Positions 32,317-62,953 of a DNA stretch of 64,000 nt are shown here, one piece after another; positions within the stretch are counted from its first letter, which is position 1; the number at the start of each line of letters is the position of its first letter. The stretch is from positions 1-64,000 of the forward strand of contig NFUO01000548.1 in the NCBI GenBank assembly GCA_002197545.1, given 5' to 3'. The notes beneath the pieces are model-generated. The model made no database searches. It was given only the letters and a program-made list of their open reading frames with translations, and was not told the origin of the DNA. The stretch is from Acidobacteria subdivision 2 bacterium RH1 MAG20. GTDB taxonomy: Bacteria; Acidobacteriota; Terriglobia; Terriglobales; Acidobacteriaceae. The position numbers and the translations under genes were made by a program.

Positions 32317-32371
32317 TTGAAAAATATGGTAGGCACGAGGGGACTCGAACTCCTGACCTCTACCGTGTCAA
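32317..32371 (-). repeat. Left attachment-site repeat (3' fragment of tRNA-Val)
   Basis: Left copy of the 55-bp repeat. On the minus strand it reads from the anticodon loop (TTGACAC) to the CCA end of tRNA-Val, then a few flanking bases. It differs from the right copy at 32321 (A for T) and 32341 (G for A). No 5' half of a tRNA is attached: homology stops at 32371. Confidence 0.85.
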
Positions 32372-32596
32372 AGAAGCCTTCGTAGACCTCCTTCATCGCC
32401 AAGCACGCTTCAAAATCAAGCTTAATCGCGTTCAAGAATTGCTTGAAGATGTCGCGGAGGTAACCTCTCTTGAAGGTTTGGCTCCTATCGATTCCAATAC
32501 AACCGGGAGGTACCACTCCTTGCGCAGCAACACCGCGGGAGTCCGTTAGCTTTCTGAATCGACTCCGCTCCATTCTCCACCGGAGGCCGGAAAGTC
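32372..32596. other. Unassigned sequence just inside the left island edge
   Basis: About 225 bases between the tRNA-Val fragment and the GH27 gene. Open frames cross it on both strands, but each runs through the tRNA fragment and has no recognised domain. Nothing functional is identified. Confidence 0.4.
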
Positions 32597-34147
32597 TCAC
32601 GGATGGCTCAGCCGCACGAGCAACACGTCGTGTGCCCCCACCTCATATTTAAAACGATCTGTGAAGACACCCATATCCTTTTGGCGCCATACGTCGTGGA
32701 CCTTCCGTTTGCCGCCTGTCCCGGCATCCGCGAAGTCAAGGGCGATCGTAAGCGGCTCTGTACTTAGGTTGAAGAGGCCTACCGCAACCGAACCATCTTC
32801 GAGCGGTTTGGCAAGAATGAACTCCTTGTCTGTCTTCCGGACGATCTTTCCCTGTTTACCGAGGCTGTCTTGATCGATGTCGATAACTTCCGAATTACAG
32901 AGAACGTTGAGGGTAAATGGGTCAAGCCTCGGCATCTCTCCGGAAAAGAAGAGCGGGGCAGCCATCAACGACCACATCGACATATAGCTATATTGTTCCG
33001 CCGGAGTCAGGCTGGTCGGCTTGGCCGGCCTTGTGATATTGTTCGCGTCTCCCACCGTTCCAATCAAAATATAATCTGGATCGTTCCACCCTCCCGGGCT
33101 TGCATAGGCGTCGAGAGCCGCATTTGCAAAGCCCACCGAATAAAACCCGGGCAGAGTTGTTCCCTTCACTGCGCCCAGATCGCCCGTAGTACGCCACGAC
33201 ATGCCGCCAACCTCGCGACCCCATTTCCAGACTTCACCCATCCCATACTGACAGATATTTAGGACGATGTCCCTATCCTGCCTCTCTAGGAGCGAGCCCA
33301 TCTTTCGATACGGCAATTGAAGCTCGGAGAGATCGTTGCTCTTGGCGATTCGCCGATAACTGCACCAGTCATACTTCAGCAAGTCAAAACCCCAATTTGA
33401 GAATTGGCGCGCGTCGGCGTCTTCGTGTTGGTAGGATGCCTCGAACTTCGCACAGGTAAGTGGTCCTGGACCAGAATAAATTCCAGCCTTTAAGCCGAGT
33501 GAGTGGATGTAACTCGTAAGTTCACTCATGCTGGGAAATCGGCCGTTGGGCAATATGTTTCCATTAGTGTCCCGCGTTGGCTCGGCTAACTGTGCATCGG
33601 TCGATCCGGGCTTTCGCGCCCACGCGTCGTCGATATCGACAAATTGGTATCCATAGTCAGCCATTCCCGAAGCGATCATCGCGTCTGCCGCTTCGCGCAC
33701 GTCCTTGTCGGTGGGGTGCTCATAGTAGGAATACCAGTCGTTCCATCCCATCTGAGGCGTCAGCCCAAGCGTCGCACCCACAACGATCTTGAATGGGCGA
33801 GATGTCTTTCCGTGCGCGTTTGAAGCTTCCAACGTCAATGCGAATTCACCAGTGTTCGTCGGAGTTTGCCCGGAAATGATTCCAGAGTTCGCATCCAGTT
33901 TGAGTGATGCGGGCAGGCCGCTTGCTGCGAAGCGGATGGGGCGCGTACCAGTGCATGGAATGCGGTACAGGAAGGGGTGGCCCGGTCTTGCGCCATACAC
34001 CTTCGGCCCGTTGATGCGCGTAGCCGCGAGAGGCTTGGGCGTGCGTAACCCGGCCATGCTCTGACCGTACCCGATGGCGCACCCGAGGCCGATCATTACG
34101 ACAGACAATGAAAACAAAAAGATACCGGACTTCGCGCTGCTGAACAT
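32597..34147 (-). CDS. GH27 alpha-galactosidase, secreted, with N-terminal Ig-like domain
   Basis: This 516-residue exported enzyme has a signal peptide up to about residue 30. An Ig-like putative-binding domain (about 45-125, with ASGLPASLKLDANSGIISG) is followed by a GH27 TIM barrel starting LTPQMGWNDWYSYY. The catalytic nucleophile is Asp260 in DLLKYDWCSY and the acid/base is Asp323 in SWRTTGDLGA. GWNDPDYILIG is also characteristic. It would remove terminal alpha-galactosyl groups (some members act on beta-L-arabinopyranose) with retention. It begins the minus-strand half of the island; 83 bases separate it from the mutarotase-like gene upstream. Confidence 0.92.
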   Translation of the reverse strand: MFSSAKSGIFLFSLSVVMIGLGCAIGYGQSMAGLRTPKPLAATRINGPKVYGARPGHPFLYRIPCTGTRPIRFAASGLPASLKLDANSGIISGQTPTNTGEFALTLEASNAHGKTSRPFKIVVGATLGLTPQMGWNDWYSYYEHPTDKDVREAADAMIASGMADYGYQFVDIDDAWARKPGSTDAQLAEPTRDTNGNILPNGRFPSMSELTSYIHSLGLKAGIYSGPGPLTCAKFEASYQHEDADARQFSNWGFDLLKYDWCSYRRIAKSNDLSELQLPYRKMGSLLERQDRDIVLNICQYGMGEVWKWGREVGGMSWRTTGDLGAVKGTTLPGFYSVGFANAALDAYASPGGWNDPDYILIGTVGDANNITRPAKPTSLTPAEQYSYMSMWSLMAAPLFFSGEMPRLDPFTLNVLCNSEVIDIDQDSLGKQGKIVRKTDKEFILAKPLEDGSVAVGLFNLSTEPLTIALDFADAGTGGKRKVHDVWRQKDMGVFTDRFKYEVGAHDVLLVRLSHP

Positions 34148-34230
34148 ACATTCTCCTTGTGATTGCGAACCTTGATTCTGCCGACGAACTTGGATGCGTA
34201 TTAATCAACTGGTCATGCCACTCTTGGCCA

Positions 34231-35283
34231 TTACAAACTCCGCCGGGGCAGTCCAGAACCTGCTCGTGCTGGAAATGTATTGAGGCCTGATTCCTTTCGA
34301 TGGACGTGCGCGATGAAGCTCCGGTAGGTGAGACCGGGCGAGGTCAGCTCGACCTGCAGATCCCATGCGAAGGAACACTCCGGAGCGAGACTGACTGCCA
34401 AGCCAGCCCGCTCGCAGTCCGATAGGGTATTGCATGGTGCCGTGGTGGGCTCGAGGGCGATCGCGACCTGCTTTGGTTCCAGGCCTGAGACGGGCCAACC
34501 TCCGAAGCAGAGCCAGATGCCAAGATAAGGCAGCCGCGATGGGTCGAAGGAGACAATGACCCCTTGCCCTCGGTTTCGGCGGAAGAGTCCGCAACGTCCG
34601 ACATGGAGTCTGCGGGTGTAGATCATCTCAGCCGTCTCCTGGTGAGGCGCCATGGCTACGCTCAGGTCTCTCAGATCTTTCTTGTTATGAAGCACAGGCC
34701 ACAGGAGATCTCTCTCTTCGCGTCCAAACGCCTCATCCCGAGAGTAGGAGAGCGTGACGTCACCGACTTCGGGCGGTAAGACCACACGGTCTCCGGCTTC
34801 CACCGCGAACAGAGGATGCCAAGCATACAGAAATGAGAGGCACTTCGGTCCGACGTTGACGACCCTGTAGCTGAGCAAGAGCGATGCATCGTTGACCTCG
34901 ATGACTCTCTCAAGGCGAAGCGGACGGCTGAAGCCGACTGCATGCATCTCGAGTCGCCTGCCGGCGAGCGAGTCCACTTGCCAGGGGATCTGCCAGAAGT
35001 CTCCGTGATCCGGCGCTGGACCGCCGGTGCAGTCGGCACAGGGTCCAACTGTGGGAAGACATTCCTCAGCCCCCGCGCATGGGCCGCTCTGGAAGGAGGC
35101 TTCGAGGCCTGGTTCGATGACCGGACGGCCCGGTCGTGCTTGGGTGAGGAACTCCAATCCCGACTGGAGGCTGCGCAGGGAAGCGATCCTGCCCCCTTCC
35201 CGCGGGACGACGGTCACTGCGATCTCGTCGGTCCTCAGCGTGATCGGCGTCGTGTGCGCAGAGTCCTCGTTCAACGGCTTCAT
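34231..35283 (-). CDS. Aldose 1-epimerase (galactose mutarotase)-like protein
   Basis: This 350-residue protein has the galactose-mutarotase-like beta-sandwich. The N-terminal EIAVTVVPREGGRIASLRS is the typical first strand pair, and FLYAWHPLFAVEAGD contains the conserved His of the family. SFDPSRLPYLGIWLCFGG and VAIALEPTTAP are also typical of the fold. Mutarotases interconvert the anomers of free sugars before catabolism. Several catalytic positions cannot be verified by eye, so a broader sugar-binding role remains possible. It lies between the sugar porter and GH27 genes on the same strand. Confidence 0.75.
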   Translation of the reverse strand: MKPLNEDSAHTTPITLRTDEIAVTVVPREGGRIASLRSLQSGLEFLTQARPGRPVIEPGLEASFQSGPCAGAEECLPTVGPCADCTGGPAPDHGDFWQIPWQVDSLAGRRLEMHAVGFSRPLRLERVIEVNDASLLLSYRVVNVGPKCLSFLYAWHPLFAVEAGDRVVLPPEVGDVTLSYSRDEAFGREERDLLWPVLHNKKDLRDLSVAMAPHQETAEMIYTRRLHVGRCGLFRRNRGQGVIVSFDPSRLPYLGIWLCFGGWPVSGLEPKQVAIALEPTTAPCNTLSDCERAGLAVSLAPECSFAWDLQVELTSPGLTYRSFIAHVHRKESGLNTFPARAGSGLPRRSL

Positions 35284-35346
35284 TGGCGTTCCGCGACCCT
35301 ATCCTCGGCCGGTCGGGCCGAGTCGTGCAAAACCCGCAGGTTGGGA

Positions 35347-36777
35347 CTAGGTAACAATGTTTGCACCGATCTCTTCCAACGATCGTCCCTTGGTTTCGGA
35401 GACGTAAAATCCGACGAACAGCGACCCCAGAAGGCAGATGATTCCGTATTCGGTGAAGGTGCCTCCGGTTCCAAATTTCGCGTTCAAGACCGGAAAGGAG
35501 TAGGTGAGGGCGAAGCAGGCGATCCAAAGAGCTCCGACAGCGGCTGAGATACCCTGAGAGCGAATCTGGCTGGGAAATATCTCCGCGATGAGAATCCATA
35601 CGACGGGAGCAAGCGTTACCGCGTAGCAGGCTATTGCGCTTAGGGTCAGCAGCAGGACGGCGCCACCTCTCCAGTGGGCGTGGTAAGCCCATGCGCACAG
35701 CAGGTGCGATGTTCCGATGCCGATGCATCCGAAGAGCATGAGGGGGCGGCGTCCGACGCGGTCGACTAGCAGCATCGCCAGGATCGTAAACACCACGTTG
35801 ATCGAGCCTGTGACGATGATGTTGAGGAAGATGTCGTTGGCGCCGTAGCCGGCTTCTCGATAGACCTCGGCCGCGTAGTTGAACAGTATGTTGACGCCCG
35901 TCCACTGCTGCAGGACGGCCAGAGTGATTCCTATCAGCAAGACCCGCAACACGGAAGGGCGCCTTAGCAACTCGCGCCAGCGCAATCTTCGCTGAGCCCG
36001 CTCGATGGTCAATGCGCCTTCGATGGCATTCTGCTCTGCGTCTGCGTAGCGTTCTCCTCCGATGCGCGCCAGCACTGAGCGAGCTTCCCGTTTCCGTTCT
36101 CGCGCCACCAGCCAACGCGGGCTCTCCGGGATGAAGATGGACGCCAGGGTAAACACGACCGCCGGGATCGCTACCGCGCTGAACATCCAACGCCAGCCTG
36201 TCTGGACATTCCATGTTTCGAGCATCGCGGATGCGCTCAGTCCAATTGGGACCGGCCGCGCGATGCGCCAGTTGGCCACCTGTGCGAGGAGGATACCGAA
36301 CACGATGGCGAGCTGATTGAGACTGATCAACCGGCCGCGAATATCGGATGGGCTTATCTCGGCGATATAGAGCGGGGAGACATTCGAGCTCAGTCCGATC
36401 GCCATTCCGCCTGCGATTCTCCAAATGATGAAGGCTTCAAAGCTGTGGGCCCATCCGGTTTCGACAGACGAGAGCGCGAAGAGGACTGCGGCGGCCAGTA
36501 GGATCTTCTTTCGTCCAAAGCGCTCAGCAAAGTAGCCGGCGGCAAGTGTGCCGATAAGGCAGCCGACCAGCGCGCAGCTGTTTGCCCATCCCACCATGGT
36601 GGGCGAGATGAGATGGAAATAGATTTCGTAGAACTGGCGCGCGCCGCCGATCACTACCCAGTCGTACCCGAAGAGCAGGCCGCCGAGAGCCGCGACCGCA
36701 GCCAGACCCCAGACGTAGATCGAGCGATCCGAAGGCACTGCGGATGTGGTTTCCGCTATCACGACTTGGTTTTGCAT
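35347..36777 (-). CDS. Sugar-porter family MFS transporter
   Basis: This 476-residue inner-membrane transporter belongs to the sugar porter subfamily (XylE/GalP/GLUT-like), probably a sugar-proton symporter. Family signatures are AGYFAERFGRKKILLAAA, SSNVSPLYIAEISPSDIRG, ESPRWLVARERKREAR and VDRVGRRPLMLFGC. About 12 helices are seen. The gene starts 2 bases after the end of the DUF5107 gene on the same strand, so the two are surely co-transcribed. It would import the monosaccharides set free by the island's glycosidases. Confidence 0.93.
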   Translation of the reverse strand: MQNQVVIAETTSAVPSDRSIYVWGLAAVAALGGLLFGYDWVVIGGARQFYEIYFHLISPTMVGWANSCALVGCLIGTLAAGYFAERFGRKKILLAAAVLFALSSVETGWAHSFEAFIIWRIAGGMAIGLSSNVSPLYIAEISPSDIRGRLISLNQLAIVFGILLAQVANWRIARPVPIGLSASAMLETWNVQTGWRWMFSAVAIPAVVFTLASIFIPESPRWLVARERKREARSVLARIGGERYADAEQNAIEGALTIERAQRRLRWRELLRRPSVLRVLLIGITLAVLQQWTGVNILFNYAAEVYREAGYGANDIFLNIIVTGSINVVFTILAMLLVDRVGRRPLMLFGCIGIGTSHLLCAWAYHAHWRGGAVLLLTLSAIACYAVTLAPVVWILIAEIFPSQIRSQGISAAVGALWIACFALTYSFPVLNAKFGTGGTFTEYGIICLLGSLFVGFYVSETKGRSLEEIGANIVT

Positions 36778-36779
36778 CG

Positions 36780-39700
36780 TTAGTCCGTGCTCTCTGCCGC
36801 AAGGTCTATCGCCGGCGCGTAGTTTCGATCGAGTTTGAGCACTTCATGCAACAACGTCGATGCTTCCTGACGCTCGCCGAAGCCGAGCATAGCCTGGGCC
36901 TGCAGAAATCGGCCCACAACCTTGTGGCGAAGCACTGTGTCTTCTTCAAAGAGAAGCATTGTGGGGAGGGACGTCGCGAAATAGTCGATCTTCGGCTCCT
37001 GCTGTTCCAACTCACGACCGTACGCGCCGATCCGTTGGAACAGTGTTGTCGCTTCTTTCCTGTGTCCCATCTCTTTCAGGGCGAGCGCGCTCCAGTAGGT
37101 CATCTCCGAGACCGGTTGCACATGCATCTGCTGAAAGTCACTGCGCTGCCGTGCCGCGCGCTCCCAATGCGCGGCTGCCGCGGTGGAATCGCCTACTGCC
37201 GCGTGCGCTCGTCCCAGCCAGTAGTCGATCATGCTGCGGTTGGCTAACAGGTGCATGGCTTCGCTGAGACTCGCAGGAGGATTGGAGGCGGAATGAAGCC
37301 GCGCGATAGCCTCCGCGGCATCGCCCATCGTCAGTGCTTCCCGAGCCAGGAGGACGTTCGCTCGCACATACTGGCCCAGCACCAATCCTTCGCCGCCTTC
37401 CCAGGGGCCAAACTGCCGTGAGAGCAGAATCTCCAAAGCTTGATACGGTTTGACTGTGGAGTTGTAGAGCGTGGCGAGCTCGACGCTGAGATCGTCTCGA
37501 AGGGCGACGAGAGTTGCCTCGGACTGCAGCGTGATGAGCCTGTGTTCGGGAGCCTCACCCATTCGTTTCCTCAACTGATCCTGCTCATAGAGGAGACGGG
37601 CATTGTGAGGCGCAAGTGCTCGAGCACGGGTGAACGCTGCCAGAGCGGCGTCGACATCATGCCGCACATTGAAGCATGCAAATCCGAGATTGCGCCAGCA
37701 GGTTGGAAGATCAGGATCGAGCTGGGAGGCACGCTGCCAGAGAGCGATGGCTTCCTCGTAGCGTCGGCGATCGTACAGCAGGTTTCCAAGGTAATACGGT
37801 GCGCGCGTATCCGAGGGATTGCGTTCGATGGCGCGCTCCAGCATCTGCAACTCCTCAAGGCGGCTTGGAAAGACAAAGTCGGCACTTGCCGCCGCTGCGT
37901 GCCGGTATGCCTGAAGGCTCGCTTCGTGCCGTTGCAGCTGTTCCAACGTGTCCGCTCGCAGATAAAGCAGCAGCGCGGTCGTTCCATCGTTCCTGGACGC
38001 TGGCAGCGCTTCCAGTGCGGTGAGTGCTTCCTCCAGGAGGCCAGCGCGCACAAGGTCGAATGCGAGATCCAGACACCTCTGGCCATCGTGCGGAGGCATG
38101 CCCGTCTCTAAGAATCGGCTGAAGATATCGAGAGGATCGAGATGGCGCGTTGCCTGCAACAGCTCTTCCGCCTGCTGCGTGTGTCCGAGCTTGTTTAACA
38201 CGACAGACTTCAAGTTGCGCGCGTTGAGATTGTCCGTGTCCGCTCTTAAGGATCGATTGAGATGATCAAGCGCCAGCTCCCAATCGCCACGGGCGCAATC
38301 GATCTCCGCAAGACGGTGGTAAGCCGGCCCCCGCCATGCCGCGTTCCATGTGCTCTTATAGAACGCTTCGTAGGCTTCTTCTGACCGGCTCTGTGCATGG
38401 AGTGCGAGACCAAGGTTGTAGTGGGGCTCGCCGTCGTATGGGTTCGGGTTTCGCCGCGTCATTCGGGCGATTGCGGTCCGAAGGTATATCTCCGCGCGTT
38501 GGAAGTCTCCCCGGCGAAGATAGAAGCGGCCCAGCGCTGCATTTGCACGGCTGTCTCCGGTGTCTCTGCGGATTGCCTCGAGCCAATAGAGTTCGGGGTG
38601 ACGCGTGGGATGCCGATACTGCTCCAGGTGCAAGCCTGTCAAATACAACTCATCTGAACTCTCGACGTCCTGCGGTAGCGGAGGTTTTGTTGCCACCTCC
38701 GGCTTGGCTACCGGCACGATCTCTGATCGCGCATACAGGAGCCGATTTCTTCCACCTTGCTCCAGGAGCACCTCGATGGCACTTGGATCGCCAGCAACGG
38801 AGAAGTTGTGGTGCAGTGGCGTGTCTGCCCGAAGGTCCGATGTGAATCGGCCGATCTCCCGGCTAGCAAGGCGAACGATCAGGGTGCATCCTGGCAGATC
38901 GGAGGTCGACTGCACGTGCACGCAGACGCCGGTGCCGGTGTCTTCTACCCGCATGGCAGCATCCACATTTGCGAGATCGGGTACGCCGATCTCGCTGATC
39001 GGATACCAGAACTGGCTGAATGTTTTCGTCTCGCCCGGAGCCAGGAAAGAGAAGTCCGGTTGATTGTCCGTATAGACTCCCGACATCAGTTCGACGTAAG
39101 GTCCGTCTGCGTCCGTCAGGCTGCGATCCCAGGCATAGCCGAACTCATGGTTGCCCCATGTCCATTGCTTTTTGCCGGGGGAGATGTGATGGTTCGCCAC
39201 TGCGACGGTGCCTGCCTGCGCTCGATGGTCGTATCCTCCGAAGAAGTCGCCGCGTGAGCCGACGATCATGTAGCTGGTTGGCACAGGGATATTCGCAAAC
39301 CAGCCCAGATCGTGGGGGGGATATGAGCCATCAGGCACAAACTGTTGCGGCATCTCTGCGGCAGGCACGCCTGTTCGCGCGCGTTCACCGTAATCGACAC
39401 CGTAGTACTTTCGCTGACTGAGCGGATACTCCGTGATGGCCCGCTTCGCGTGGTCCGCGGCAAACCGCACGTCGTGTGGGAAGAACGATTGATACCTCTC
39501 ATGCACGCGCGTGGCCATGTTGGCCCACCAGAGGAACGTCTGGGTATCCTGGGTTCGGTTATAGAGCCGTACCCGAACCTCCAGGATGGCTCTTCCGGGT
39601 CTCAACCGCAGGCCATGCATGCCCTTCATTCGTGCCATGGGATCGTGGTCGCTGCACCATACAGTCACGGACCCGTCGTGTTCCCGCTCGATGGCGCACT

Positions 39701-40223
39701 CCACAGGCATGTGTGTGGCTGGACGATGATGCTGGGGCCAGTTGAACTCGACGCCGCCGGAGATCCATGGTCCGGCGAGGCCGACCAGGGCAGGCTTGAT
39801 CACATTCTGTCGGTAGAAGAAGTCGTAGCCGGTCCTCTTGTCGAGGCCCACGTGAATGCGTCCGCCGACCTCAGGCAAGACCATGAGGCGAAGAAATTCG
39901 TTCTCAAGATGGATCGCCTGCCAGACCTTCGGCCGAGGTGTCGTCTCGATCGCGTCGATGACTGGAAGCGGGTAGACCCGGCCGCTGCTCCCCTGATAGA
40001 CGCGCGACTCGAGGAACAGCGGATGGATATCCGGCTGGGCGGGGGTATAGGTCAACAACGTTACGGGTTCATCCCAGGCCTTGACCGCGCCGGTCTCCGT
40101 TGCAGGCGGGGAAGCCAGCTGCAGGCTCGCCTCCGGAGGGGCTGATTCTTCGACGGGCAGATGTTCTTTCAGCACGGTGCTTCCTCGGCTTCGCCAAAGC
40201 GACACATCGATCAACACGGGCAA
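36780..40223 (-). CDS. DUF5107 and TPR protein, 1147 residues
   Basis: The N-terminal ~400 residues match the DUF5107 type of sugar-metabolism-associated domain. Signature segments are LENEFLRLMVLPEVGGRIHV, GGVEFNWPQHHRPATHMPV and WTWGNHEFGYAWDRSLTDAD. This part resembles the galactose-mutarotase-like fold. Residues ~530-1130 are tetratricopeptide repeats such as DSRANAALGRFYLRRGDFQR and PYYLGNLLYDRRRYEEAIAL. There is no signal peptide, so it is cytoplasmic. The family is often found beside sugar porters and may sense or process imported sugar; the activity is unknown. It lies upstream of the porter gene (2-base gap) and downstream of the LacI-type regulator gene. Confidence 0.85.
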   Translation of the reverse strand: MPVLIDVSLWRSRGSTVLKEHLPVEESAPPEASLQLASPPATETGAVKAWDEPVTLLTYTPAQPDIHPLFLESRVYQGSSGRVYPLPVIDAIETTPRPKVWQAIHLENEFLRLMVLPEVGGRIHVGLDKRTGYDFFYRQNVIKPALVGLAGPWISGGVEFNWPQHHRPATHMPVECAIEREHDGSVTVWCSDHDPMARMKGMHGLRLRPGRAILEVRVRLYNRTQDTQTFLWWANMATRVHERYQSFFPHDVRFAADHAKRAITEYPLSQRKYYGVDYGERARTGVPAAEMPQQFVPDGSYPPHDLGWFANIPVPTSYMIVGSRGDFFGGYDHRAQAGTVAVANHHISPGKKQWTWGNHEFGYAWDRSLTDADGPYVELMSGVYTDNQPDFSFLAPGETKTFSQFWYPISEIGVPDLANVDAAMRVEDTGTGVCVHVQSTSDLPGCTLIVRLASREIGRFTSDLRADTPLHHNFSVAGDPSAIEVLLEQGGRNRLLYARSEIVPVAKPEVATKPPLPQDVESSDELYLTGLHLEQYRHPTRHPELYWLEAIRRDTGDSRANAALGRFYLRRGDFQRAEIYLRTAIARMTRRNPNPYDGEPHYNLGLALHAQSRSEEAYEAFYKSTWNAAWRGPAYHRLAEIDCARGDWELALDHLNRSLRADTDNLNARNLKSVVLNKLGHTQQAEELLQATRHLDPLDIFSRFLETGMPPHDGQRCLDLAFDLVRAGLLEEALTALEALPASRNDGTTALLLYLRADTLEQLQRHEASLQAYRHAAAASADFVFPSRLEELQMLERAIERNPSDTRAPYYLGNLLYDRRRYEEAIALWQRASQLDPDLPTCWRNLGFACFNVRHDVDAALAAFTRARALAPHNARLLYEQDQLRKRMGEAPEHRLITLQSEATLVALRDDLSVELATLYNSTVKPYQALEILLSRQFGPWEGGEGLVLGQYVRANVLLAREALTMGDAAEAIARLHSASNPPASLSEAMHLLANRSMIDYWLGRAHAAVGDSTAAAAHWERAARQRSDFQQMHVQPVSEMTYWSALALKEMGHRKEATTLFQRIGAYGRELEQQEPKIDYFATSLPTMLLFEEDTVLRHKVVGRFLQAQAMLGFGERQEASTLLHEVLKLDRNYAPAIDLAAESTD

Positions 40224-52324: not shown

Positions 52325-52694
52325 GGAGGTGTCCGGCGAGCTGCTGCTCGATAAATTGGAGATGGCGCAGAAGGCGCTCCAATGGCTCGCGGTAGATACG
52401 TATGAACCCATCCTGCAGTACTACCTGCACCCGCACTTCGAGATACTACTTTTATGTGCGCATTATACCCCGGCTTCCGCCCGGCTGAACGTCGGTACAC
52501 CTCGCGGAGTGCTGCGTGCGGATATTCGGTATGAGCAGCTACTGGGCAAGGCACGATTCAGGCTGAAGTTCGTGCTCGGCGAACGCATTGCGAATCTAAG
52601 GGTCCGGATGCCATCGGAACACGGCTATCTTTGGGTAACGAAAACGAACGTTGGCGCTGCGCAGATTACTGCGCACCAACCGGGCCGCGCATGA
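52325..52694 (+). pseudogene. Remnant of a paralogue of the (alpha/alpha)6 enzyme at 60.2-61.8 kb
   Basis: The translated sequence LLLDKLEMAQKALQWLAVDT followed by YEPILQYYLHPHFE aligns with MLLFDNLTMVGKALSWLANA and TYQPVPEYKLHRD of the intact gene. Further on, ANLRVRMPSEHGYLWV aligns with SDLKVRMPSKNGYVWR at its C-terminus. About 50 residues between the two blocks are missing and the first two thirds of the gene is absent. The piece therefore represents the last third of a duplicated gene with an internal deletion. It sits immediately before the heparinase-type lyase gene. Confidence 0.65.
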
Positions 52695-52713
52695 CGTGGC
52701 GAATGGGCATTCG

Positions 52714-54921: not shown

Positions 54922-54950
54922 CGCTGAACCGAATCGCTTCCAAACCTCCG

Positions 54951-55000: not shown

Positions 55001-55099
55001 ACCGTTCCGCGCATGAGGTTTTGCGCGGGAATCCTGCACTACTTGTTCTTCCATCTGTGTGGCACATCACTGGTATCAGAACCTTCTTTGGAGGGTTAT

Positions 55100-56266
55100 A
55101 TGCTGTTTCGCAGAGTGTCACGGATAGCGGTCGCAACGTGCTTCATGGGTTGTTGCGTAATGGTTAGTGCGTCGCAGCAACCGTCCACACCGCTCTTGGG
55201 AGCGGCTATCACTGCCGCTGCTGGAGACTCGCAGCCAGATAACAATCCGCCAGCAGAACTTCGGCCCGCCATCAAGCAGAAGGATATTAAGAAGGCAATC
55301 CGCCTTGTCGCGGACTGGCAAATTCACCGGTCTGCGGAAAAGTTCAATCAGGACTGGACGTATGCCCCGCTGTATCTCGGCCTGCTCGCAGCCAGTAGCG
55401 CTACCGGTGACCGCAAGTATCACGACGTCGTCCTTGAGCAGTCGCAAAAGTTCCAGTGGAAACTATGGGCGAATCGCGATCTGCACGCCGACGACGAAGC
55501 GATTGCACAGGCCTACGAGAAGCTCTACTTCGAAGACAAAGATCCGGTAAGGATCGCGGATGCACGGGCAACATTCGATCGCCTCGTCGCGCACACCGAC
55601 AATCCTGACAAAGACCTTTGGTGGTGGTGCGACGCTCTGTTCATGGCGCCCGCAGGACTCGCAGAGATGTCCGCGATTACCGGCGACCACAAGTACCTTG
55701 ACGCGATGGATCGCGAGTGGTCGCTGACGCAGCAAAATCTCCTTGACCCCAAACAAAAGCTCTTCTACCGCGACGCCACATTTCTCGGCAAGCGCGAACC
55801 CAATGGCGAGCCCATCTTCTGGGCTCGCGGTAACGGGTGGGTCCTCGCCGGCATCGCGAACGTCCTAAAAGCGATGTCGAAGAACGATCCGCTTCGACCT
55901 AGATACGAGACACTCTTCAGGCAGATGGCTGCGCGCATCGCCGAACTGCAGCAAGCCGATGGACTCTGGAAGCCAGGTTTGCTCAATCCGCAACAGTACC
56001 CTCTCTCCGAAGTTTCTGGCTCCGCATTCTTCACTTATGGCCTTGTGTGGGGCGTGAACAACGGATTGCTGAATCGCAAAGAGTATGGCCCTGTCATCGA
56101 AAGAGCGTGGGCGGGCATGCTCAAGCACGTCTATGCCGATGGCCGGCTTGGTTCCATACAGCCCATCGGCGCTGCTCCGGACGCCTTTTCGGGGCCTTCG
56201 AGCTATGTCTACGGAGTCGGTGTGTTCCTCATGACCGGAGCAGAAATGATGCGGTATGCGAAATGA
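55100..56266 (+). CDS. GH105-like unsaturated uronyl hydrolase, exported
   Basis: This 388-residue protein has an N-terminal membrane-targeting signal (ISRI-like stretch then VATCFMGCCVMVSAS) and an (alpha/alpha)6 barrel. Characteristic segments are WTYAPLYLGLLAASSATGD, DLWWWCDALFMAPAGLAEM (catalytic Asp region), IFWARGNGWVLAGIANVL, and SGSAFFTYGLVWGVNNG. GH105 hydrolyses the unsaturated galacturonyl or glucuronyl group left by a lyase. The ATG at 55100 has a GGAGGG just upstream; the frame is open to 55013. The lyase gene lies 178 bases upstream, which matches this two-step chemistry. Confidence 0.87.
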   Translation: MLFRRVSRIAVATCFMGCCVMVSASQQPSTPLLGAAITAAAGDSQPDNNPPAELRPAIKQKDIKKAIRLVADWQIHRSAEKFNQDWTYAPLYLGLLAASSATGDRKYHDVVLEQSQKFQWKLWANRDLHADDEAIAQAYEKLYFEDKDPVRIADARATFDRLVAHTDNPDKDLWWWCDALFMAPAGLAEMSAITGDHKYLDAMDREWSLTQQNLLDPKQKLFYRDATFLGKREPNGEPIFWARGNGWVLAGIANVLKAMSKNDPLRPRYETLFRQMAARIAELQQADGLWKPGLLNPQQYPLSEVSGSAFFTYGLVWGVNNGLLNRKEYGPVIERAWAGMLKHVYADGRLGSIQPIGAAPDAFSGPSSYVYGVGVFLMTGAEMMRYAK

Positions 56267-56469: not shown

Positions 56470-59400
56470 ATGCCGCATTCATGGAAGTGTTTTCTGCCGA
56501 TGGTTGTTGCAGGGGTGGCATTCAGTGTCCAAGCCCAAACCTCCAAGACGCCGGACATTACAAAACAACCCACCCTGTATGTTGTTCCGTACGCGCACCT
56601 TGACACGCAATGGCGCTGGGATTTTCCGCAGACGATCAGCGAGTATCTTCTGAAGACCCTGAAGGTCAACTTCTACTACATCGATAAGTATCCCCACTAT
56701 GTCATCAATTGGACCGGGTCGAACCGCTACCGGTTGATGAAGGAGTACTATCCGGCGGATTACAAACGCATGAAGCAGTACGTCGCCGAGGGCAGATGGT
56801 TTCCCGCTGGGTCCTCAGTGGAAGAAGGCGATGTCAATCTTCCCAGCGCGGAATCGATCATCCGGCAGATTCTTTACGGCAATACGTACTACCGCAAGGA
56901 ATTCGGCAAAGCCAGCAATGAATACATGCTGCCTGATTGTTTCGGATTTCCTGCCTCGCTGCCTACCATCCTGGCTCACGCCGGCATCAAGGGCTTTTCC
57001 ACGCAGAAGCTAGGTTCCGACTGGCAGCCTGCGCCTCACGTCGGAGGCCCGAACTCGCTTGAACAAACGCCCGCAGGCATTCCCTTCAATGTCGGGATCT
57101 GGGAGGGAACCGACGGCGAAACCGTCCTTGCGGCGCTCAACCCGCTTGAATATATTGGCGGAATCCGCTACGACCTCAGCAAAGCGCCGCCTCCGCTTCC
57201 AGCCGGATCGACGGCTACGCAGGTCTTCGGCAGCAGCAGCGGCATGACGGACTGGGTCTCGCGTATCGATCTCGACGGTAAAGTGAGTGGCGTCTACGCC
57301 GATTATCACTACATCGGTACCGGTGACATCGGCGGTGCTACCGACGAAGAGTCGATCAAGTTCCTTGAGGCACTGGTTACTCACGGAACAATGGTTTTGC
57401 CGCCTCCTGAAGCTCCTTCCGGCTCCCACGCGACCAAACTTCCCTCGGACTTTGCGAATGCCGATCCAGCCCGTGTGGGCGATGGTCCCGTACATGTCCT
57501 TGCATCGACGGCTGACCAGATGTTTCACGACATCAAGCCTTACATGACCTCGAAGATGCCACGTTACAAAGGCGATCTTGAGTTGATTAACCACTCCGCT
57601 GGTTCGCTTACTTCGGAGGCCTATCACAAGCGCTGGAACCGCGAGAACGAGATCCTTGCCGATGGCGCTGAGAAGGCTTCGGTGGTTGCGGCATGGATGG
57701 GCGGCAGGCCCTATCCCCACCAGCGCTTGAACGATGCATGGACCTTGGTCATGAGCGGCCAATTTCACGACACTGCCGCGGGCACCGCAAGTCCGCGGGC
57801 CTACCAATTTGCGTGGAACGATGACGTCATTGCGCTGAACCAGTTTGCCGACGTTCTCACTAGCGCCACGGAGGCCGTGGCGTCGGCGCTGAACACGGAG
57901 ACCAAGGGCATTCCCGTAGTGGTCTACAATTCGCTCAATATCCCGCGCGAGGATATCGTCGAAGCTGAGGTCCACTTTCCCGACGGAATGCCGGAGGCTG
58001 TGAAGGTTCTCGATCCTGACGGCAAAGAAGTCCCCGCACAGATTAAAGACGGCAAGGTGCTTTTTCTGGCTAAGACGCCGTCCGTTGGGTACGCAGTGTA
58101 CGAGGTCCACGCGGCAGTATCCGAACCCTCGACGGAACTCAAGGTTACGCAATCATCCCTGGAGAATGCGCGTTATCGCGTCTCGCTCAACGCAGCCGGC
58201 GACATCAGCAGCATCTTTGACAAGACACTCAACAAGGAGCTGCTCTCAGCACCAATGCGGCTTGCCATCTCCAACGATGCGCCAAAGCAGTGGCCGGCGT
58301 GGAATATGGATTTCGATCAGGAGCAGGCTGCGCCTCGCGCTTACGTGAGCGGTCCGGTCAAGACGCGCATCGTGGAAGATGGTCCAGCCCGAATTGCAAT
58401 TGAGGTTTCGCGCGAGACCGAAGGATCAAGGTTTGTGCAAACCGTCCGTCTCTCGGCGGGCGACGCCGGCAACCGCGTCGAGTTCAGTGACGCTATCGAC
58501 TGGAGAACGCTCTCGGCGAACCTCAAGGCGGTCTTCCCGCTTTCGGGCACCAATCCAATGGCCACTTACAACTGGGAGATCGGTACCGTTCAGAGGCCGA
58601 CTGCTTTTGATCGCCAGTTTGAGGTTGCCTCGCACCACTGGATCGATCTGACGGACAAGAGCGGCGCATATGGCACCACAATTCTCACCGGGCCAAAGAA
58701 CGGTTCCGACAAGCGCATGGACAATACCATTCGGCTCACGCTGATTCGCACACCAGGAGCCCCTTTGCCCGGTCCCGGAGGTGATTTCCCGGATCAGCTC
58801 AACAAGGATTGGGGACACCACGAAATCCTCTACGGGCTCGCGGGGCACATGGGCGACTGGCGCAGTGGCCAGACAGACTGGCAGGCGTATCGCCTCAGCA
58901 CTCCTCTGGTAGCCTTCACCACCGGGCGGCATCCAGGCGCTCTGGGCCGAAGCTTCTCGTTAGTCAACATCGACAATCCGTATATCAGGATTCTTGCGCT
59001 CAAGAAAGCGGAGATGAGCGATGAAGTCATCTTGCGCATGGTTGAGCTGGACGGCAGCGCTGCGCCCGACGTCAAGGTTAAGTTTGCGGGACCGATTGCC
59101 TCAGCACGCGAAGTTAATGGCCAGGAGCTGCCGACTGGGCCGGCGAAGGTTATCGATGGCGTACTGGAAACATCGTTCAACGCTTATCAGCCGCGCACCT
59201 TTGCTCTCCGTCTTGGCTCGGCCCCGGCGCAGGTCAGCGCGGTTGAATCCCAGCCGGTCGAGCTAAAGTACAACCTGGCGGCAGCCAGCAATGACGATAC
59301 GAAATCCGTCGGTGGCTTCGACTCCAAAGGAGATGCACTGCCGGCCGAGATGCTGCCTAAAGAGCTGAACTTCAATGGCGTCGACTTTCATCTGGCACAT

Positions 59401-60042
59401 GCCGCGACGGGTGAACCTGATGCCGTGGTTGCACAGGGCCAGACGATTCAACTTCCCGCAGGCGACTTCAATAGAGTTTATCTGCTGGCGGCCTCAGCTG
59501 ACGGCGATCAGGAGACGGTCTTCAAGGCAGGCACTCACGCTGCCCAGTTCACGGTTGAGGATTGGGGAGGCTTCGTCGGCCAATGGGACACGCGCTTGTG
59601 GATGCCCGCCCCCGACAGCGTCATGGTTGGTGATCCGCCGCACGCGGTGCCTCTACGCAAGGACTGGGCAGTCTCTGCGAACCACGCTACATGGAACGAC
59701 GTGGCCTATCGTGGATCTCCCTGGTGGTCGCCTCGCTATCCGCAGGACTACATCGGCCTGGCTCCCGGCTACATCAAAGCCGCTCCGCTGGCGTGGTATG
59801 CCTCGCATCACCATACCCCTGAAGGACTCAATGAGCCCTATGAATACAGCTATCTCTTTGCCTACTCGATGGAGTTGCCACCGCACGCTACCAAGCTGGT
59901 TCTTCCGAAGAATGACAACATTCGTATTCTGGCAATCTCCGTGGCGCGGGAAAATCCGCAAGTTCTTCCGGCCCAGCCGCTCTACGACACGCTGAGACGT
60001 ACTGACACGATGAAGAAAGGCTACATCACGGCAGCGCACTGA
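56470..60042 (+). CDS. GH38 alpha-mannosidase, exported
   Basis: This 1190-residue protein has a signal peptide ending SVQAQT and a GH38 catalytic domain. Zinc ligands are His43 and Asp45 in PYAHLDTQW, and the nucleophile is Asp156 in MLPDCFGFPASLP. QFHDTAAGTASPRAYQF supplies the second zinc-site His. The middle helical bundle and the large C-terminal beta-rich region (~500-1190) follow the family plan. It hydrolyses terminal alpha-mannosyl links with retention. The export signal places it in the periplasm, unlike many cytoplasmic bacterial GH38 enzymes. It shares the strand with the lyase and GH105 genes. Confidence 0.92.
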   Translation: MPHSWKCFLPMVVAGVAFSVQAQTSKTPDITKQPTLYVVPYAHLDTQWRWDFPQTISEYLLKTLKVNFYYIDKYPHYVINWTGSNRYRLMKEYYPADYKRMKQYVAEGRWFPAGSSVEEGDVNLPSAESIIRQILYGNTYYRKEFGKASNEYMLPDCFGFPASLPTILAHAGIKGFSTQKLGSDWQPAPHVGGPNSLEQTPAGIPFNVGIWEGTDGETVLAALNPLEYIGGIRYDLSKAPPPLPAGSTATQVFGSSSGMTDWVSRIDLDGKVSGVYADYHYIGTGDIGGATDEESIKFLEALVTHGTMVLPPPEAPSGSHATKLPSDFANADPARVGDGPVHVLASTADQMFHDIKPYMTSKMPRYKGDLELINHSAGSLTSEAYHKRWNRENEILADGAEKASVVAAWMGGRPYPHQRLNDAWTLVMSGQFHDTAAGTASPRAYQFAWNDDVIALNQFADVLTSATEAVASALNTETKGIPVVVYNSLNIPREDIVEAEVHFPDGMPEAVKVLDPDGKEVPAQIKDGKVLFLAKTPSVGYAVYEVHAAVSEPSTELKVTQSSLENARYRVSLNAAGDISSIFDKTLNKELLSAPMRLAISNDAPKQWPAWNMDFDQEQAAPRAYVSGPVKTRIVEDGPARIAIEVSRETEGSRFVQTVRLSAGDAGNRVEFSDAIDWRTLSANLKAVFPLSGTNPMATYNWEIGTVQRPTAFDRQFEVASHHWIDLTDKSGAYGTTILTGPKNGSDKRMDNTIRLTLIRTPGAPLPGPGGDFPDQLNKDWGHHEILYGLAGHMGDWRSGQTDWQAYRLSTPLVAFTTGRHPGALGRSFSLVNIDNPYIRILALKKAEMSDEVILRMVELDGSAAPDVKVKFAGPIASAREVNGQELPTGPAKVIDGVLETSFNAYQPRTFALRLGSAPAQVSAVESQPVELKYNLAAASNDDTKSVGGFDSKGDALPAEMLPKELNFNGVDFHLAHAATGEPDAVVAQGQTIQLPAGDFNRVYLLAASADGDQETVFKAGTHAAQFTVEDWGGFVGQWDTRLWMPAPDSVMVGDPPHAVPLRKDWAVSANHATWNDVAYRGSPWWSPRYPQDYIGLAPGYIKAAPLAWYASHHHTPEGLNEPYEYSYLFAYSMELPPHATKLVLPKNDNIRILAISVARENPQVLPAQPLYDTLRRTDTMKKGYITAAH

Positions 60043-60186
60043 AAAACCACCCCGAAATAAGCGAAGGAGCACGAGTGAAGAGATAATTATTTCTGCCTGA
60101 GTCGAGTGTGGGATTAGCGCGTCCGTACCGGCAACCCATGTCGTGGCCCTGCTATTAAGCCTGAGATTGTGAGTGTGAGGGAAGTC

Positions 60187-61818
60187 ATGTCGATCAAGTG
60201 GTCCGCAACTCTTGTTGGAATGGTGATGCTTGCATGGATGGCTTTCACGCGTCCTTTCGGGAGCGTCAGTGCGTCCTCTTCGATCAGTCGGACTGAAACG
60301 GATCAACCTGTTTCGCTTCAATTCTCCGGTTCCCCGGATGCCGAACTATTCACGAGGGAACTCGACGCATCGTTTCAGGGCGTGCTCGAGAAGAATTTTG
60401 TCTCTGTTGCGGGCGATGGTTTTCCGGCAGGGTTTGTCAACGCATCGCTCCCAGGTTTTCCCTGGACAGGCACGATGTGGACGCGCGATGGCGGCACTTT
60501 CATGCGTGAACTCGTTATGCGTGGTTATTTAGGGCATGCTTCGCTGCTCGCAGAGTGTCTGATGCATTTGGTGGAAAAGAATTCGGACGGATTCTATTCC
60601 TTCCCGGAGTACTTCAAGGGATCGCAGCCGGGATCGGGTGCGGAGATGGATGGCACGACTTCAATTGTCATCGGGATGGTGTTGTTATGGGAACGCCTGC
60701 CCGATGGAGATGCCACCAAAAGAGATATTCAGCAGTTCCTATTTCAAGATGCCTCGCCGATCAACAGCATCGAGTTCGAGCTGAAGACGAAGCCGCTCGT
60801 AGCAGGCAGCGGTGAGTTCGGCTGCGGATTAGGTGTTGCCGGATTGTGTTACAACGTCGCGCAAAACAACCTGGTGCGGCTCGCTCTGCTGGCAGCAGCC
60901 AAAATGGCAGACGAGGCCGGTGATGACACTAGAGCTGAGGAGTACCGGCATCTGGCGGACCGCGTCGGTGTTGCCATGGAGAAATACCTTGTCGACAAAG
61001 ATGGGGGATGGATATGGTGTATCGATGAAAGAACAATGAAGCCGGACCCGCGCATATTGAACGCACAAGGGAACAAAGGCATTGGATCGATCAACGGCGT
61101 TGCCTCGATGTATGCAGACGTGCTGGGTCTTCAGCCGCTGAACTCCTCATGGAAGGCAGGCGCAGCGCATAGCGAGAAGACATTCCAGCGCCTCTATAAC
61201 ACTCCGCTGCGCAAGATGGAGTTCGACCACTACGGAATCTGGACGCAGTTCGATCTGCTGGCCGGAGGATTACTTTCCAGCCCGTCCTATGGCCAGGGAT
61301 ATGCAATTCAGACCATGCTTCTCTTCGATAACCTGACGATGGTCGGAAAGGCGCTGTCATGGCTAGCGAATGCAACCTATCAGCCTGTTCCAGAGTACAA
61401 GCTACATCGGGACTCTCCCTATTTCTTTTATGAGCGGACATACTCTCCGGATGCGGTCGGAAAGATTCCGCTCGCAGAGGGTTGCGGCGCATTGAATCTG
61501 GTCAATGTTTCCGAGCCGCTGAAAGTGTCTCGGCTCATGCTGGGCGTGGATGACTCATCGCCGCAATCCATTCTGGTCCTTCCTCGGCTTCCGTATAGCT
61601 GGACGGGCGTTACAGCACATAACTGGCCTATTTTGACTCCGAGTGGGTTAGTCAGGGCCGGCATCTCGTTCGAAAAGCAAGGAGCAGGCGGCGATTTCAC
61701 AATGAAGCTTGCCTCCGGTCAACAGATCAGTGATCTGAAAGTTCGAATGCCGTCGAAGAATGGTTATGTCTGGCGTGAACAGAAGCATGCTGGATCTGTG
61801 CATTTTGTAACGCAATGA
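60187..61818 (+). CDS. Exported (alpha/alpha)6-barrel glycoside-hydrolase-like protein, family unassigned
   Basis: This ~543-residue exported protein has a hydrophobic signal (KWSATLVGMVMLAWMAFTRP). An (alpha/alpha)6-type region has FPWTGTMWTRDGGTFMREL, LVMRGYLGHASLLAECLMHL and GIGSINGVASMYADVLGL, resembling GH15/GH63/GH94-type six-hairpin glycosidases. The C-terminal domain is beta-rich (ISDLKVRMPSKNGYVW). I cannot assign a CAZy family. The start at 60187 follows a GAGGGA; an in-frame GTG at 60169 is possible. A broken paralogue of its last third is at 52325-52694, so the gene has been duplicated within the island. Confidence 0.65.
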   Translation: MSIKWSATLVGMVMLAWMAFTRPFGSVSASSSISRTETDQPVSLQFSGSPDAELFTRELDASFQGVLEKNFVSVAGDGFPAGFVNASLPGFPWTGTMWTRDGGTFMRELVMRGYLGHASLLAECLMHLVEKNSDGFYSFPEYFKGSQPGSGAEMDGTTSIVIGMVLLWERLPDGDATKRDIQQFLFQDASPINSIEFELKTKPLVAGSGEFGCGLGVAGLCYNVAQNNLVRLALLAAAKMADEAGDDTRAEEYRHLADRVGVAMEKYLVDKDGGWIWCIDERTMKPDPRILNAQGNKGIGSINGVASMYADVLGLQPLNSSWKAGAAHSEKTFQRLYNTPLRKMEFDHYGIWTQFDLLAGGLLSSPSYGQGYAIQTMLLFDNLTMVGKALSWLANATYQPVPEYKLHRDSPYFFYERTYSPDAVGKIPLAEGCGALNLVNVSEPLKVSRLMLGVDDSSPQSILVLPRLPYSWTGVTAHNWPILTPSGLVRAGISFEKQGAGGDFTMKLASGQQISDLKVRMPSKNGYVWREQKHAGSVHFVTQ

Positions 61819-61905
61819 TGCCGTTAAGTCTTAATGATTGGCGGAAATGCCGACCTTGATACCGAAACCTGATTCAAGCCGCGAGCGAGGGGATAGAAAA
61901 GAAAT

Positions 61906-62741
61906 ATGAAGAGACGGACATTTCTATTGCAGTCGAGCGGGGGGATTTGCCGCAGCCGTGATGCATGGCTTCGGGCAAGCGCCAGTGGGTTCGGCTGGTG
62001 GCCCTCATAATGAGGAAACTGCACCAGCTACGCAGGAGGCTCAGCCGCCGATCATGCACCCGGGCATATTGCAAACTCGAGCCGATCTTGAGCTTATGAA
62101 AGCTAAGATCAAAGCCAGTGAAGAACCGTGGAAATCGTCATGGGACCTGTGGCTCACGGGGCCGATTGCATCGCTGGACTTCACGCCGAAGCCATTCCCA
62201 CATATCGTTCGCGGCGCTTTTGGTGCGGGAGAGCAAGGTGGCCGTGAACTCTCGGAAAGCGCGGACGCCGCAAACAATCATGTGATGCAGTGGTACGTCA
62301 GCGGGAACGAGGCGCATGTGCGCAAGGCAATCGAGATATTCGACGCGTGGTCGCACACGTTGGCAGATTTCTTTGAGAATGACGCCATGCTGTTAGCCGG
62401 GTGGACTGGCGGCCTGTTCTGCAATGCGGCAGAGATACTACGTGCAACATATCCAGGTTGGAACACTGCGTCACAGGAGCAGTTCAAGCGCATGCTGCCG
62501 ACGGTCTATGTTCCGCTGCTGCGCATGTTCTATCCCGAGGCGAACGGCAATTGGGACGCTGCCATCATGTACACACTGCTGTCGATCGGCGTCTTCTGTG
62601 AGGACCGTGACCTGATGGAGGCGGTCTATCAGCACTATCGTATGGGACCTGTGAACAGCGGCATCACGCACTACGTTTACCCGAGCGGCCAATGCGAGGA
62701 GACGTGCAGGGATCAGGGACATACGCAAATGGGGCTCGGAT
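61906..62741 (+). pseudogene. Alginate-lyase-family gene, frameshifted and 3'-truncated
   Basis: The gene starts at 61906 with MKRRTFLLQSS, a twin-arginine signal, and shifts frame in a run of six G (61939-61944). With five G the signal would continue GFAAAVMHGFGQAPVG, in the frame of the rest of the gene. The remaining frame encodes an alginate-lyase-family (PF05426) domain with HPGILQTRADLELMKAKIKA, DAANNHVMQWYVSGNEAHV and EETCRDQGHTQMGLG. At about 62741 the homology stops, and the sequence continues into an integrase-like tail. The encoded protein is therefore both out of frame at its signal and missing its C-terminal part, and is unlikely to work. Confidence 0.75.
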
Positions 62742-62902
62742 ACCACGGCCAACGAATACATGCAGGAGTTGCCGGAGAGTGTGAAGAAGATGGTCGGATC
62801 GGTCTACATCATGCTGACGAAAGGAGGGAATCAAAACAAGCTTTTGGAGATTTGCTACCAAAAGCTACCAACGCTTCTCAGGAACTTTCTGTAAGTGCTT
62901 GA
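62739..62902 (+). pseudogene. C-terminal remnant of a tyrosine-type integrase
   Basis: In the second frame the sequence reads TTANEYMQELPESVKKMVGS followed by VYIMLTKGG, which resembles the C-terminal catalytic-Tyr helix of phage-type integrases (YMQ region). After a one-base frameshift near 62822 the frame FGDLLPKATNASQELSVSA continues, a plausible tail. Only about 55 codons remain. It ends at the start of the right tRNA-Val repeat, the usual place of a tRNA-targeting integrase gene. The likeness is my own recognition without a database search. Confidence 0.6.
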
Positions 62903-62953
62903 TAAATATGGTAGGCACGAGGAGACTCGAACTCCTGACCTCTACCGTGTCAA
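62899..62953 (-). repeat. Right attachment-site repeat within tRNA-Val
   Basis: Right copy of the 55-bp repeat, covering the 3' two thirds of tRNA-Val on the minus strand plus about ten flanking bases. It matches 32317-32371 at 53 of 55 positions, with mismatches at 62903 and 62923. Confidence 0.85.

Follow-up and report, generated by a model that had tools for sequence, protein, structure and literature searches.

In Bacteroides, polysaccharide utilisation loci can be carried on integrative elements; in the Bacteroidetes such a locus is recognised by a SusC/SusD-like pair, and a carbohydrate-active enzyme (CAZyme) gene cluster is a group of several glycoside hydrolases (GH) or lyases with a transporter and a regulator. 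We analysed 64,000 nucleotides of Acidobacteria subdivision 2 bacterium RH1 MAG20 (contig NFUO01000548.1, positions 1 to 64,000; "the window"), in which tRNA-Val(GAC) very probably holds a composite island of 51.6 kb. In this reading tyrosine-integrase elements inserted there twice, first a block for exopolysaccharide synthesis (E1) and later one for glycan degradation (E2). E2 resembles the Bacteroides elements in that it was integrated and combines genes for glycan degradation with an outer-membrane transporter. It differs from them in its acidobacterial host and tRNA-Val site; the 14 E2 open reading frames (ORFs) scanned include neither conjugation genes nor a SusD match, and nothing indicates that this cargo was transferred recently.

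Islander defines islands in tRNA genes (tDNA islands) by the tDNA, a displaced fragment of it and an integrase, and its table gives 3919 islands, along with 125 tandems that have at least two members (PMC4383910). As far as the available part of that source describes them, the window island is like Islander islands in its regenerated tDNA, same-orientation displaced 3′ fragments, anticodon-type crossover and stacking at one tDNA, and unlike them in that its blocks are without an intact integrase and its outer fragment has decayed to 87%; by the same partial description, it would probably fail the Islander integrase filter. Among Acidobacteria, candidate islands near tRNA genes, with integrase genes, have been picked by composition in Candidatus Solibacter usitatus (PMC3174227). 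These share with the window island an acidobacterial host, a nearby tRNA and integrase genes, but the available part of that account gives no attachment-site mapping or tandem structure for them. Prophages and mobile elements in Acidobacteria are described in PMC5900883, whose available text does not contain the term "genomic island", and the available text of PMC11924767 does not contain "tRNA-Val". Literature listings on polysaccharide loci on integrative elements, on acidobacterial CAZyme clusters and on the combined theme showed no report of the rpmB/tRNA-Val site described here.

The first-pass annotation of this stretch had described 55-bp direct repeats with two mismatches (32317–32371 and 62899–62953), made of the 3′ end of tRNA-Val(GAC), bounding a 30.6-kb block with the intact tRNA at one end only. 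The repeat pair is as described, with the refinement that 45 of the 55 nt are the tRNA 3′ half and the other 10 are element-side flank. In a repeat search with a 14-nt seed and a minimum length of 25 nt, the pair grows to 69 nt at 90% identity (32309–32377 and 62891–62959), and the window shows no further direct family of that length, although the decayed copy at 11283 listed below escaped this search. A 31-nt core, with up to three mismatches allowed, has two matches in the window and none in 100 shuffles. ARAGORN finds a single tRNA-Val gene in the window, and the right repeat copy sits within it, which bears out the claim of one intact end. The geometry is classical, with an intact tRNA whose 3′ end points towards the block and a displaced 3′ fragment at the far end. 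The tRNA-derived sequences and the flanking chromosomal genes are as follows.

62909–62985, minus strand: intact, regenerated tRNA-Val(GAC), island right end at 62953 (ARAGORN; Rfam 70 bits)
32327–32371, minus strand: middle tRNA-Val 3′ fragment at the E1/E2 junction (98% to the present tRNA, E = 5e-14)
11283–11329, minus strand: outermost displaced tRNA-Val 3′ fragment, island left end (47 nt at 87% identity, E = 1e-9; score equalled in 0 of 2000 shuffles)
10541–10951, plus strand: msrB (SelR), left chromosomal flank (Pfam SelR 4.8e-50; 88% identical in L004, where it adjoins the empty site)
11020–11208, minus strand: rpmB, last chromosomal gene before the island (translation; homologues lie near intact tRNA-Val in relatives)
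63068–63640, plus strand: pgsA-like CDP-alcohol phosphatidyltransferase, right chromosomal flank (Pfam 1.4e-31)

The outermost fragment starts 74 bp past the gene at 11020–11208, whose product we take from its sequence to be ribosomal protein L28 (rpmB), and in the window 51.7 kb separate rpmB from the tRNA. We compared this arrangement with 80 genome loci (L numbers) around homologues of the window pgsA, in 59 of which ARAGORN finds tRNA-Val. The chromosomal order in relatives is rpmB–tRNA-Val–pgsA, and rpmB lies 58–418 bp from the intact tRNA-Val in 21 of these 59 loci (the 418-bp case, L033, has an inverted rpmB). When the empty site was reconstructed by joining window positions 10541–11282 to 62909–63640 and aligned to the 80 loci, a single alignment crossed the 11282/62909 junction in 13 of them (best in L004, query 1–1474, 78%). 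The first-pass annotation had predicted an empty site with tRNA-Val joined to the sequence left of 32317; represented by 31601–32326 joined to the tRNA, that junction (32326/tRNA) is crossed in none of the same 80 loci, and each of the two queries finds some match in 71 of the 80. We place the island at 11283–62953, about 51.6 kb, with 32327–32371 an internal attachment site, because rpmB and the tRNA are adjacent in relatives, because a third fragment lies further out, and because the two junctions are seen in 13/80 and 0/80 loci, respectively. We reject the 30.6-kb boundary with its left edge at 32317 on these counts.

The total length of 51.6 kb and the block lengths of 21.0 and 30.5 kb lie within the 2–200 kb that Islander allows, an intact tDNA is accompanied by displaced 3′ fragments in the same orientation, and the 13 loci that span the reconstructed junction supply an empty-site comparison that we add to the Islander rules. 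Separately, tRNA-Leu(CAG) at 4558–4644 lies 58 kb from tRNA-Val in the window, the corresponding spacing being about 4.8–7.9 kb in L014, L018 and L033 and 13 kb in G019, one of the genomes surveyed below; this spacing is an independent sign of insertion size.

The three tRNA-Val 3′ copies all have the same orientation and are 87% (outermost), 98% (middle) and 100% (right) identical to the present tRNA. Three such copies imply two integrations, and E1 would be the older because the outermost copy is the most decayed, the middle one is at 98% and the right one is intact. The middle fragment matches the tRNA as far as the 7-nt anticodon loop (GTGTCAA) and not past it; in the outermost copy the loop has decayed to ACGTCAA, and the match likewise ends after the anticodon-loop bases. 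These shared end points point to a crossover in the anticodon loop, and it is from the comparison of the copies that we infer both the insertion order and the crossover point. Each block also ends, on its right, in an element-side arm.

32309–32326, plus strand: element-side arm at the right end of E1 (GTATGTTATTGAAAAATA; motif similar to that at 62891–62908)
62891–62908, plus strand: element-side arm at the right end of E2 (GTAAGTGCTTGATAAATA; motif similar to that at 32309–32326)

The outermost fragment has no element arm, and its flank is chromosomal, resembling L004. Of the 36 non-empty loci, 19 have a TTGA in the 20 nt that precede tRNA-Val, against 1 of the 21 empty ones (Fisher p = 2e-4, kinship ignored); these counts comprise the 59 loci with tRNA-Val minus two with less than 500 bp of flank, and the non-empty class takes in other gene orders, not all of them proven insertions. 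Under the order of events we propose, E1 would have recombined at the anticodon loop and rebuilt the tRNA with its own 3′ half, pushing the native 3′ half to 11283–11329 beside rpmB. Later, E2, with an integrase of the family represented in L065 (see below), would have recombined into the restored tRNA and displaced the 3′ half of E1 to 32327–32371, and a subsequent deletion would have taken most of the E2 integrase together with the end of the adjoining lyase gene, fixing the island. Of the two members of this tandem, each has its own tDNA fragment (11283 and 32327); an integrase of its own was recognised for neither, none being found in E1 and only a remnant in E2. An open frame at 32241–32549 crosses the middle tRNA fragment and continues into the left end of E2; frames that read through tRNA remnants are a known kind of annotation artefact.

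The first-pass annotation overlooked the integrase remnant, which adjoins the tRNA.

62737–62902, plus strand: tyrosine-integrase gene remnant, C-terminal end, frameshifted (DNA alignment to L065; 29-aa peptide 93%)

The last ORF of E2 (61958–62902) reads first as an alginate-lyase family protein and then as different sequence; in another frame, 29 residues match part of a 185-aa ORF that abuts tRNA-Val in L065, at 93% identity. At the DNA level the alignment to L065 runs over 62737–62985, tRNA included, with 220 of 250 columns identical (88%, E = 6e-76), of which the tRNA contributes 77/77 and the sequence outside it 143/173 (83%). Pfam has no match for the 63-aa remnant alone, nor for the L065 ORF at 1e-3, and for this reason identification as an integrase rests on homologues of the L065 ORF: with an E limit of 1e-3 these number 453, of which 120 were listed, about 97 of them under the label PF00589, Phage_integrase. 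Near or distant matches to this ORF occur in all 19 genomes of the survey described below (G001–G019). At 20 loci of homologues (L081–L100, 3.2–3.6 kb each) a tRNA gene is found in 18, comprising six Val(CAC), eight Ala(GGC) and one each of Val(GAC), Val(TAC), Asn and Asp; the remnant therefore belongs to a tRNA-targeting integrase family. The same loci fall into sub-groups by target, with Val(CAC) at the closest homologues and Ala(GGC) at the next, and could possibly serve as a series for integrase target switching. Phage_integrase genes or fragments also end beside tRNA-Val(GAC) in L002, L013, L043 and L058 (4 of 10 ORFs tested, of 13 listed). The PgsA proteins of L065 and the window are only 52% identical, so the remnants may be alike because of transfer between distantly related hosts; a search of viral contigs with the L065 integrase fragment returned no relative.

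A deletion that joined the lyase gene to the end of the integrase gene would account for the truncation of both, and E2 looks immobilised because what is left of its integrase is joined, in the wrong reading frame, to a shortened lyase gene. Where Islander asks for an integrase ORF, the window offers a frameshifted C-terminal remnant without a Pfam match of its own, and is by that rule a decayed island. The central proposal of the first-pass annotation, a tRNA-Val island made by an integrase and carrying a glycan-degradation cluster, is nonetheless supported by the tRNA fragments, the integrase remnant and the empty sites.

We surveyed the site elsewhere by a DNA search with msrB–rpmB in 19 genomes (G001–G019) and in the regions surrounding the matches. 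The gap from rpmB to the tRNA is 12.5 kb in G008, 17.4 kb in G007, 22.1 kb in G006, 28.6 kb in G001 and 38.2 kb in G010. The site is empty in G004, G011, G012, G013, G014 and G017; in G019 the tRNA adjoins rpmB and pgsA lies elsewhere; and no link between rpmB and tRNA-Val was recovered in G002, G003, G005, G009, G015, G016 and G018. A decayed tRNA-Val fragment lies 84–103 bp from rpmB in G001, G002, G003, G006, G007 and G008 (0 of 2000 shuffles each), the same signature appears in L030 and weakly in L007, with inserts of 1.8 and 2.1 kb, and G016 has a full tRNA-Val fragment 26.65 kb from the intact gene. The 1.8-kb insert between tRNA-Val and rpmB in L030 (3314–5365), whose displaced fragment belongs to another T-arm class (see below), is a very small case of the same event.

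A cargo scan covering 64 of the 83 ORFs listed for eight regions found RND efflux and GH2 genes recurring in G001, G006, G007 and G008, and GH92, alginate lyase and OMP_b-brl_4 in G003, G010 and G016. In G003, the closest relative by PgsA (91%), a different glycan cluster lies beside the rpmB fragment, with GH92, a PQQ dehydrogenase, a Hepar_II_III/alginate-lyase protein, an outer-membrane barrel, a major facilitator superfamily (MFS) protein and an epimerase. The site is a hotspot whose cargo differs by lineage, glycan clusters included. One cargo ORF of the G010/G016/G003 set has a Phage_capsid match, and at least one occupant of the site may be of phage ancestry. In G001, G006 and G008, the ORFs next to the rpmB fragment are nearly the same in size from one genome to another; they probably represent one older insertion, inherited or spread.

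Several observations weigh against two stacked insertions. Neither block has an intact integrase and none is recognisable in E1, so it is the end fragments and the arm sequence that mark E1 as an element. The contrast in composition is modest (G+C 54.4% in E1, 57.2% in E2 and 58% in the left flank), and the assembly may be wrong at the 69-nt repeat. Clusters like E1 occur in two other genomes, G544 and G546 (39–71%, gene by gene), where the 19.5 kb compared contain no tRNA, so E1 genes need no tRNA island; together with the match to the E1 exporter in 155 of 200 family genomes at 1e-40, they make E1-type genes common in the family. The fragment signature is also not universal, since it is missing beside rpmB in G010, despite its gap of 38.2 kb (1320 of 2000 shuffles score as well), and in L015, L023 and L047, where rpmB is 2.3–3.6 kb from the tRNA.

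Such E1-like clusters, and the better preservation of the copy at 32327 as a partner for the right-hand repeat, are what could be said for regarding only 32317–62953 as foreign and the exopolysaccharide block as old chromosome. We consider this very unlikely: the adjacency of rpmB and tRNA-Val in relatives places E1 inside the interval, a third tRNA fragment lies at 11283, and it is the 51.6-kb junction, not the 30.6-kb one, that relatives contain. A single 51.6-kb element inserted once, its middle fragment being an internal relic or a later duplication, would fit the one recognisable integrase remnant, and E1 and E2 could have arrived jointly, already in tandem; yet the middle copy is correctly oriented, ends at the anticodon loop and has an element-side arm of its own, and the blocks differ in G+C and theme, so that this reading too is improbable, if marginally less so than the last. 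Short-read assemblies can join at repeats, and the least probable reading of all is that the repeats are artefacts of assembly or chance and the blocks ordinary chromosome; against it stand the lack of matches in the shuffled windows, the fusion of the integrase remnant to a lyase gene and the presence of other cargo at the same site in several other assemblies. Under the reading of two successive insertions, which we retain, the tRNA island is real and well supported, larger and partly older than had been described, with two insertions and a lost integrase.

By its protein families, the predicted cargo of E1 is exopolysaccharide synthesis and export. The families comprise cytochromes c, NTP_transf_5, SLBB/Wza-like export, Wzz-like, flippase, Wzy-like and glycosyltransferase proteins, an outer-membrane barrel, GDPD/HEAT, a weak HprK-related match and MFS. 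E2 carries the glycan-degradation genes listed after it.

11330–32326, unstranded: E1, older insertion (Pfam/NCBIfam; G+C 54.4%)
32372–62908, unstranded: E2, younger insertion (Pfam families; G+C 57.2%)
32597–34147, minus strand: Melibiase_2, alpha-galactosidase, presumably of the CAZy family GH27 (Pfam 1.1e-37)
34231–35283, minus strand: aldose-epimerase-like protein, DUF4432 (Pfam 1.6e-5, below the curated cut-off)
35347–36777, minus strand: MFS sugar porter (Pfam Sugar_tr 5.5e-109; TIGR00879 above cut-off)
36780–40223, minus strand: DUF5107 and TPR protein (Pfam 1.9e-52)
40325–41410, minus strand: LacI-family regulator (Pfam LacI 1.6e-10, Peripla_BP_4 5.5e-32)
42423–44201, plus strand: 592-aa protein (no Pfam match; faint partial GH31 (YicI) likeness, E 0.1–0.2, non-significant)
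44262–46400, plus strand: GH31 glycoside hydrolase (Pfam 4.4e-32)
46397–47785, minus strand: 462-aa protein without a recognised family (no significant Pfam, NCBIfam or PDB match)
48306–52265, plus strand: outer-membrane beta-barrel with CarboxypepD_reg domain, putatively TonB-dependent type (Pfam OMP_b-brl_4 5.8e-127)
52651–54921, plus strand: heparinase II/III-like polysaccharide lyase (Pfam 8.8e-22; PDB heparinases and alginate lyases, best 5.7e-6)
55013–56266, plus strand: GH88/GH105 unsaturated uronyl hydrolase (Pfam 8.9e-72; closest PDB entry 4ce7, 2.4e-65)
56470–60042, plus strand: GH38 alpha-mannosidase (Pfam 1.7e-36)
60169–61818, plus strand: MGH1-like glycoside hydrolase (weak), 549 aa (Pfam 7e-4, below cut-off; no PDB match)
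61958–62736, plus strand: alginate-lyase family gene, 3′-truncated (Pfam 1.3e-7; the lyase reading stops where the integrase alignment starts)

PDB searches with the truncated alginate lyase and the 592-, 462- and 549-aa proteins gave nothing significant; partial relatives of the 462-aa protein (26–36%) occur in L001, L065 and the G003 region. With Melibiase_2, GH31, GH38, GH88/105, Hepar_II_III and alginate-lyase family genes beside a barrel, an MFS porter and a LacI regulator, E2 has the make-up of a CAZyme gene cluster; the SusC/SusD-like pair is incomplete, the barrel being present and SusD having no Pfam match among the 14 E2 ORFs. The Pfam families agree with the earlier description of the block as rich in glycosidases, lyases and transporters, and not with its sensor genes, as the same ORFs include one LacI-type regulator and no sensor kinase. 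No relaxase or type IV secretion Pfam match was found among 14 E1 and 14 E2 ORFs, smaller ORFs lying outside the scan, and conjugation genes or sensor kinases on the island are rejected as far as these 28 go. The closest solved structure to the GH88/105 enzyme, 4ce7, is an unsaturated 3S-rhamnoglycuronyl hydrolase, and because of this likeness and the lyases, E2 most likely degrades a heteropolysaccharide containing uronic acid. The lyases would cut the chain and the GH105-type enzyme take off unsaturated uronic acids, GH27, GH31 and GH38 would trim side chains, the TonB-type barrel and MFS porter would import the products, and the LacI protein would regulate the set. E1 and E2 might make and degrade the same kind of polymer.

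At 1e-40, 127 of 200 family genomes have a GH38 relative, and in eight 15–19.5-kb regions around GH38 homologues (64–73%) the only other strong E2 match is one GH31 (58%), with weak barrel matches (up to 34%) in four regions and a weak MFS porter match in one. In the regions compared, no relative has E2 as a whole, and we reject, for want of support in these eight, the idea that the unit is common to relatives. For the heparinase-like lyase, 32 of 150 family genomes have a match at 1e-3, the best-scoring being 31% over 172 residues; 0 of 396 phylum genomes match at 1e-30, an empty result that in this search carries no weight. The closest relative of this lyase (95%) is in a metagenome, the next are at 79% and lower, and full-length relatives at 57–60% come from acidobacterial and verrucomicrobial records (Terracidiphilus, Sulfotelmatobacter, Verrucomicrobia). 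The first-pass annotation had the system "moving as one unit" between soil acidobacteria and explaining patchy glycan use in the phylum. Such movement is not shown: of the integrase, some 50 codons of the C-terminal end survive, with a frameshift and joined to the shortened lyase gene, and the GH38 neighbourhoods compared lack the E2 set. The phylum-wide effect is not demonstrated.

The displaced fragments also differ in the T-arm half of the tRNA. Of the 59 tRNA-Val genes, 57 have one of four T-arm versions, and those of L070 and L078 have a fifth. In 11 pairs the outermost displaced fragment was given its best T-arm class and compared with the present tRNA (L080, with two weak tRNA-like fragments and no tRNA-Val, lies outside these pairs). 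The class differs in 6 of the 11, namely the window, G001, G006, G007, L030 and L007 (a weak call, 18 vs 16), and is equal in G002 and G003, where the present tRNA is on another contig, and in G008, G016 and L025. The pairs from G001, G006 and G008, with similar ORF sets beside the fragment, are perhaps non-independent, and several pairs may stem from one insertion event. In the window the middle fragment has the present T-arm class and the outermost another. T-arm class a0 is found in 14 of 36 non-empty versus 2 of 21 empty loci (Fisher p = 0.03, kinship ignored), a weak difference that we do not use as evidence. Replacement of the tRNA 3′ half on integration is established, as described in the available part of PMC4383910, and a narrow literature search found no report that it brings a T-arm of another class so often. 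We tentatively propose, as a reading that falls a little short of an even balance, that elements in Acidobacteriaceae repeatedly overwrite the T-arm half of tRNA-Val(GAC), such that a core tRNA would have inherited its T-arm from mobile DNA and the decayed T-arms beside rpmB would be a fossil record of insertions.

The mechanism is well known, and the island is ordinary in kind and instructive in detail, the block having a greater length and more layers than the first description gave it. An island may extend past the nearest repeat pair: had empty sites not been compared, 21 kb of foreign DNA would have passed as chromosome. In a poorly studied soil phylum, a precise docking site between rpmB, tRNA-Val and pgsA is now mapped, at which older insertions can be told by their decay and at which blocks for making exopolysaccharide and for degrading glycans are stacked. 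In an acidobacterial genome that has this gene order, the site can be scored as occupied, empty or fossil, which makes it a simple test bed.

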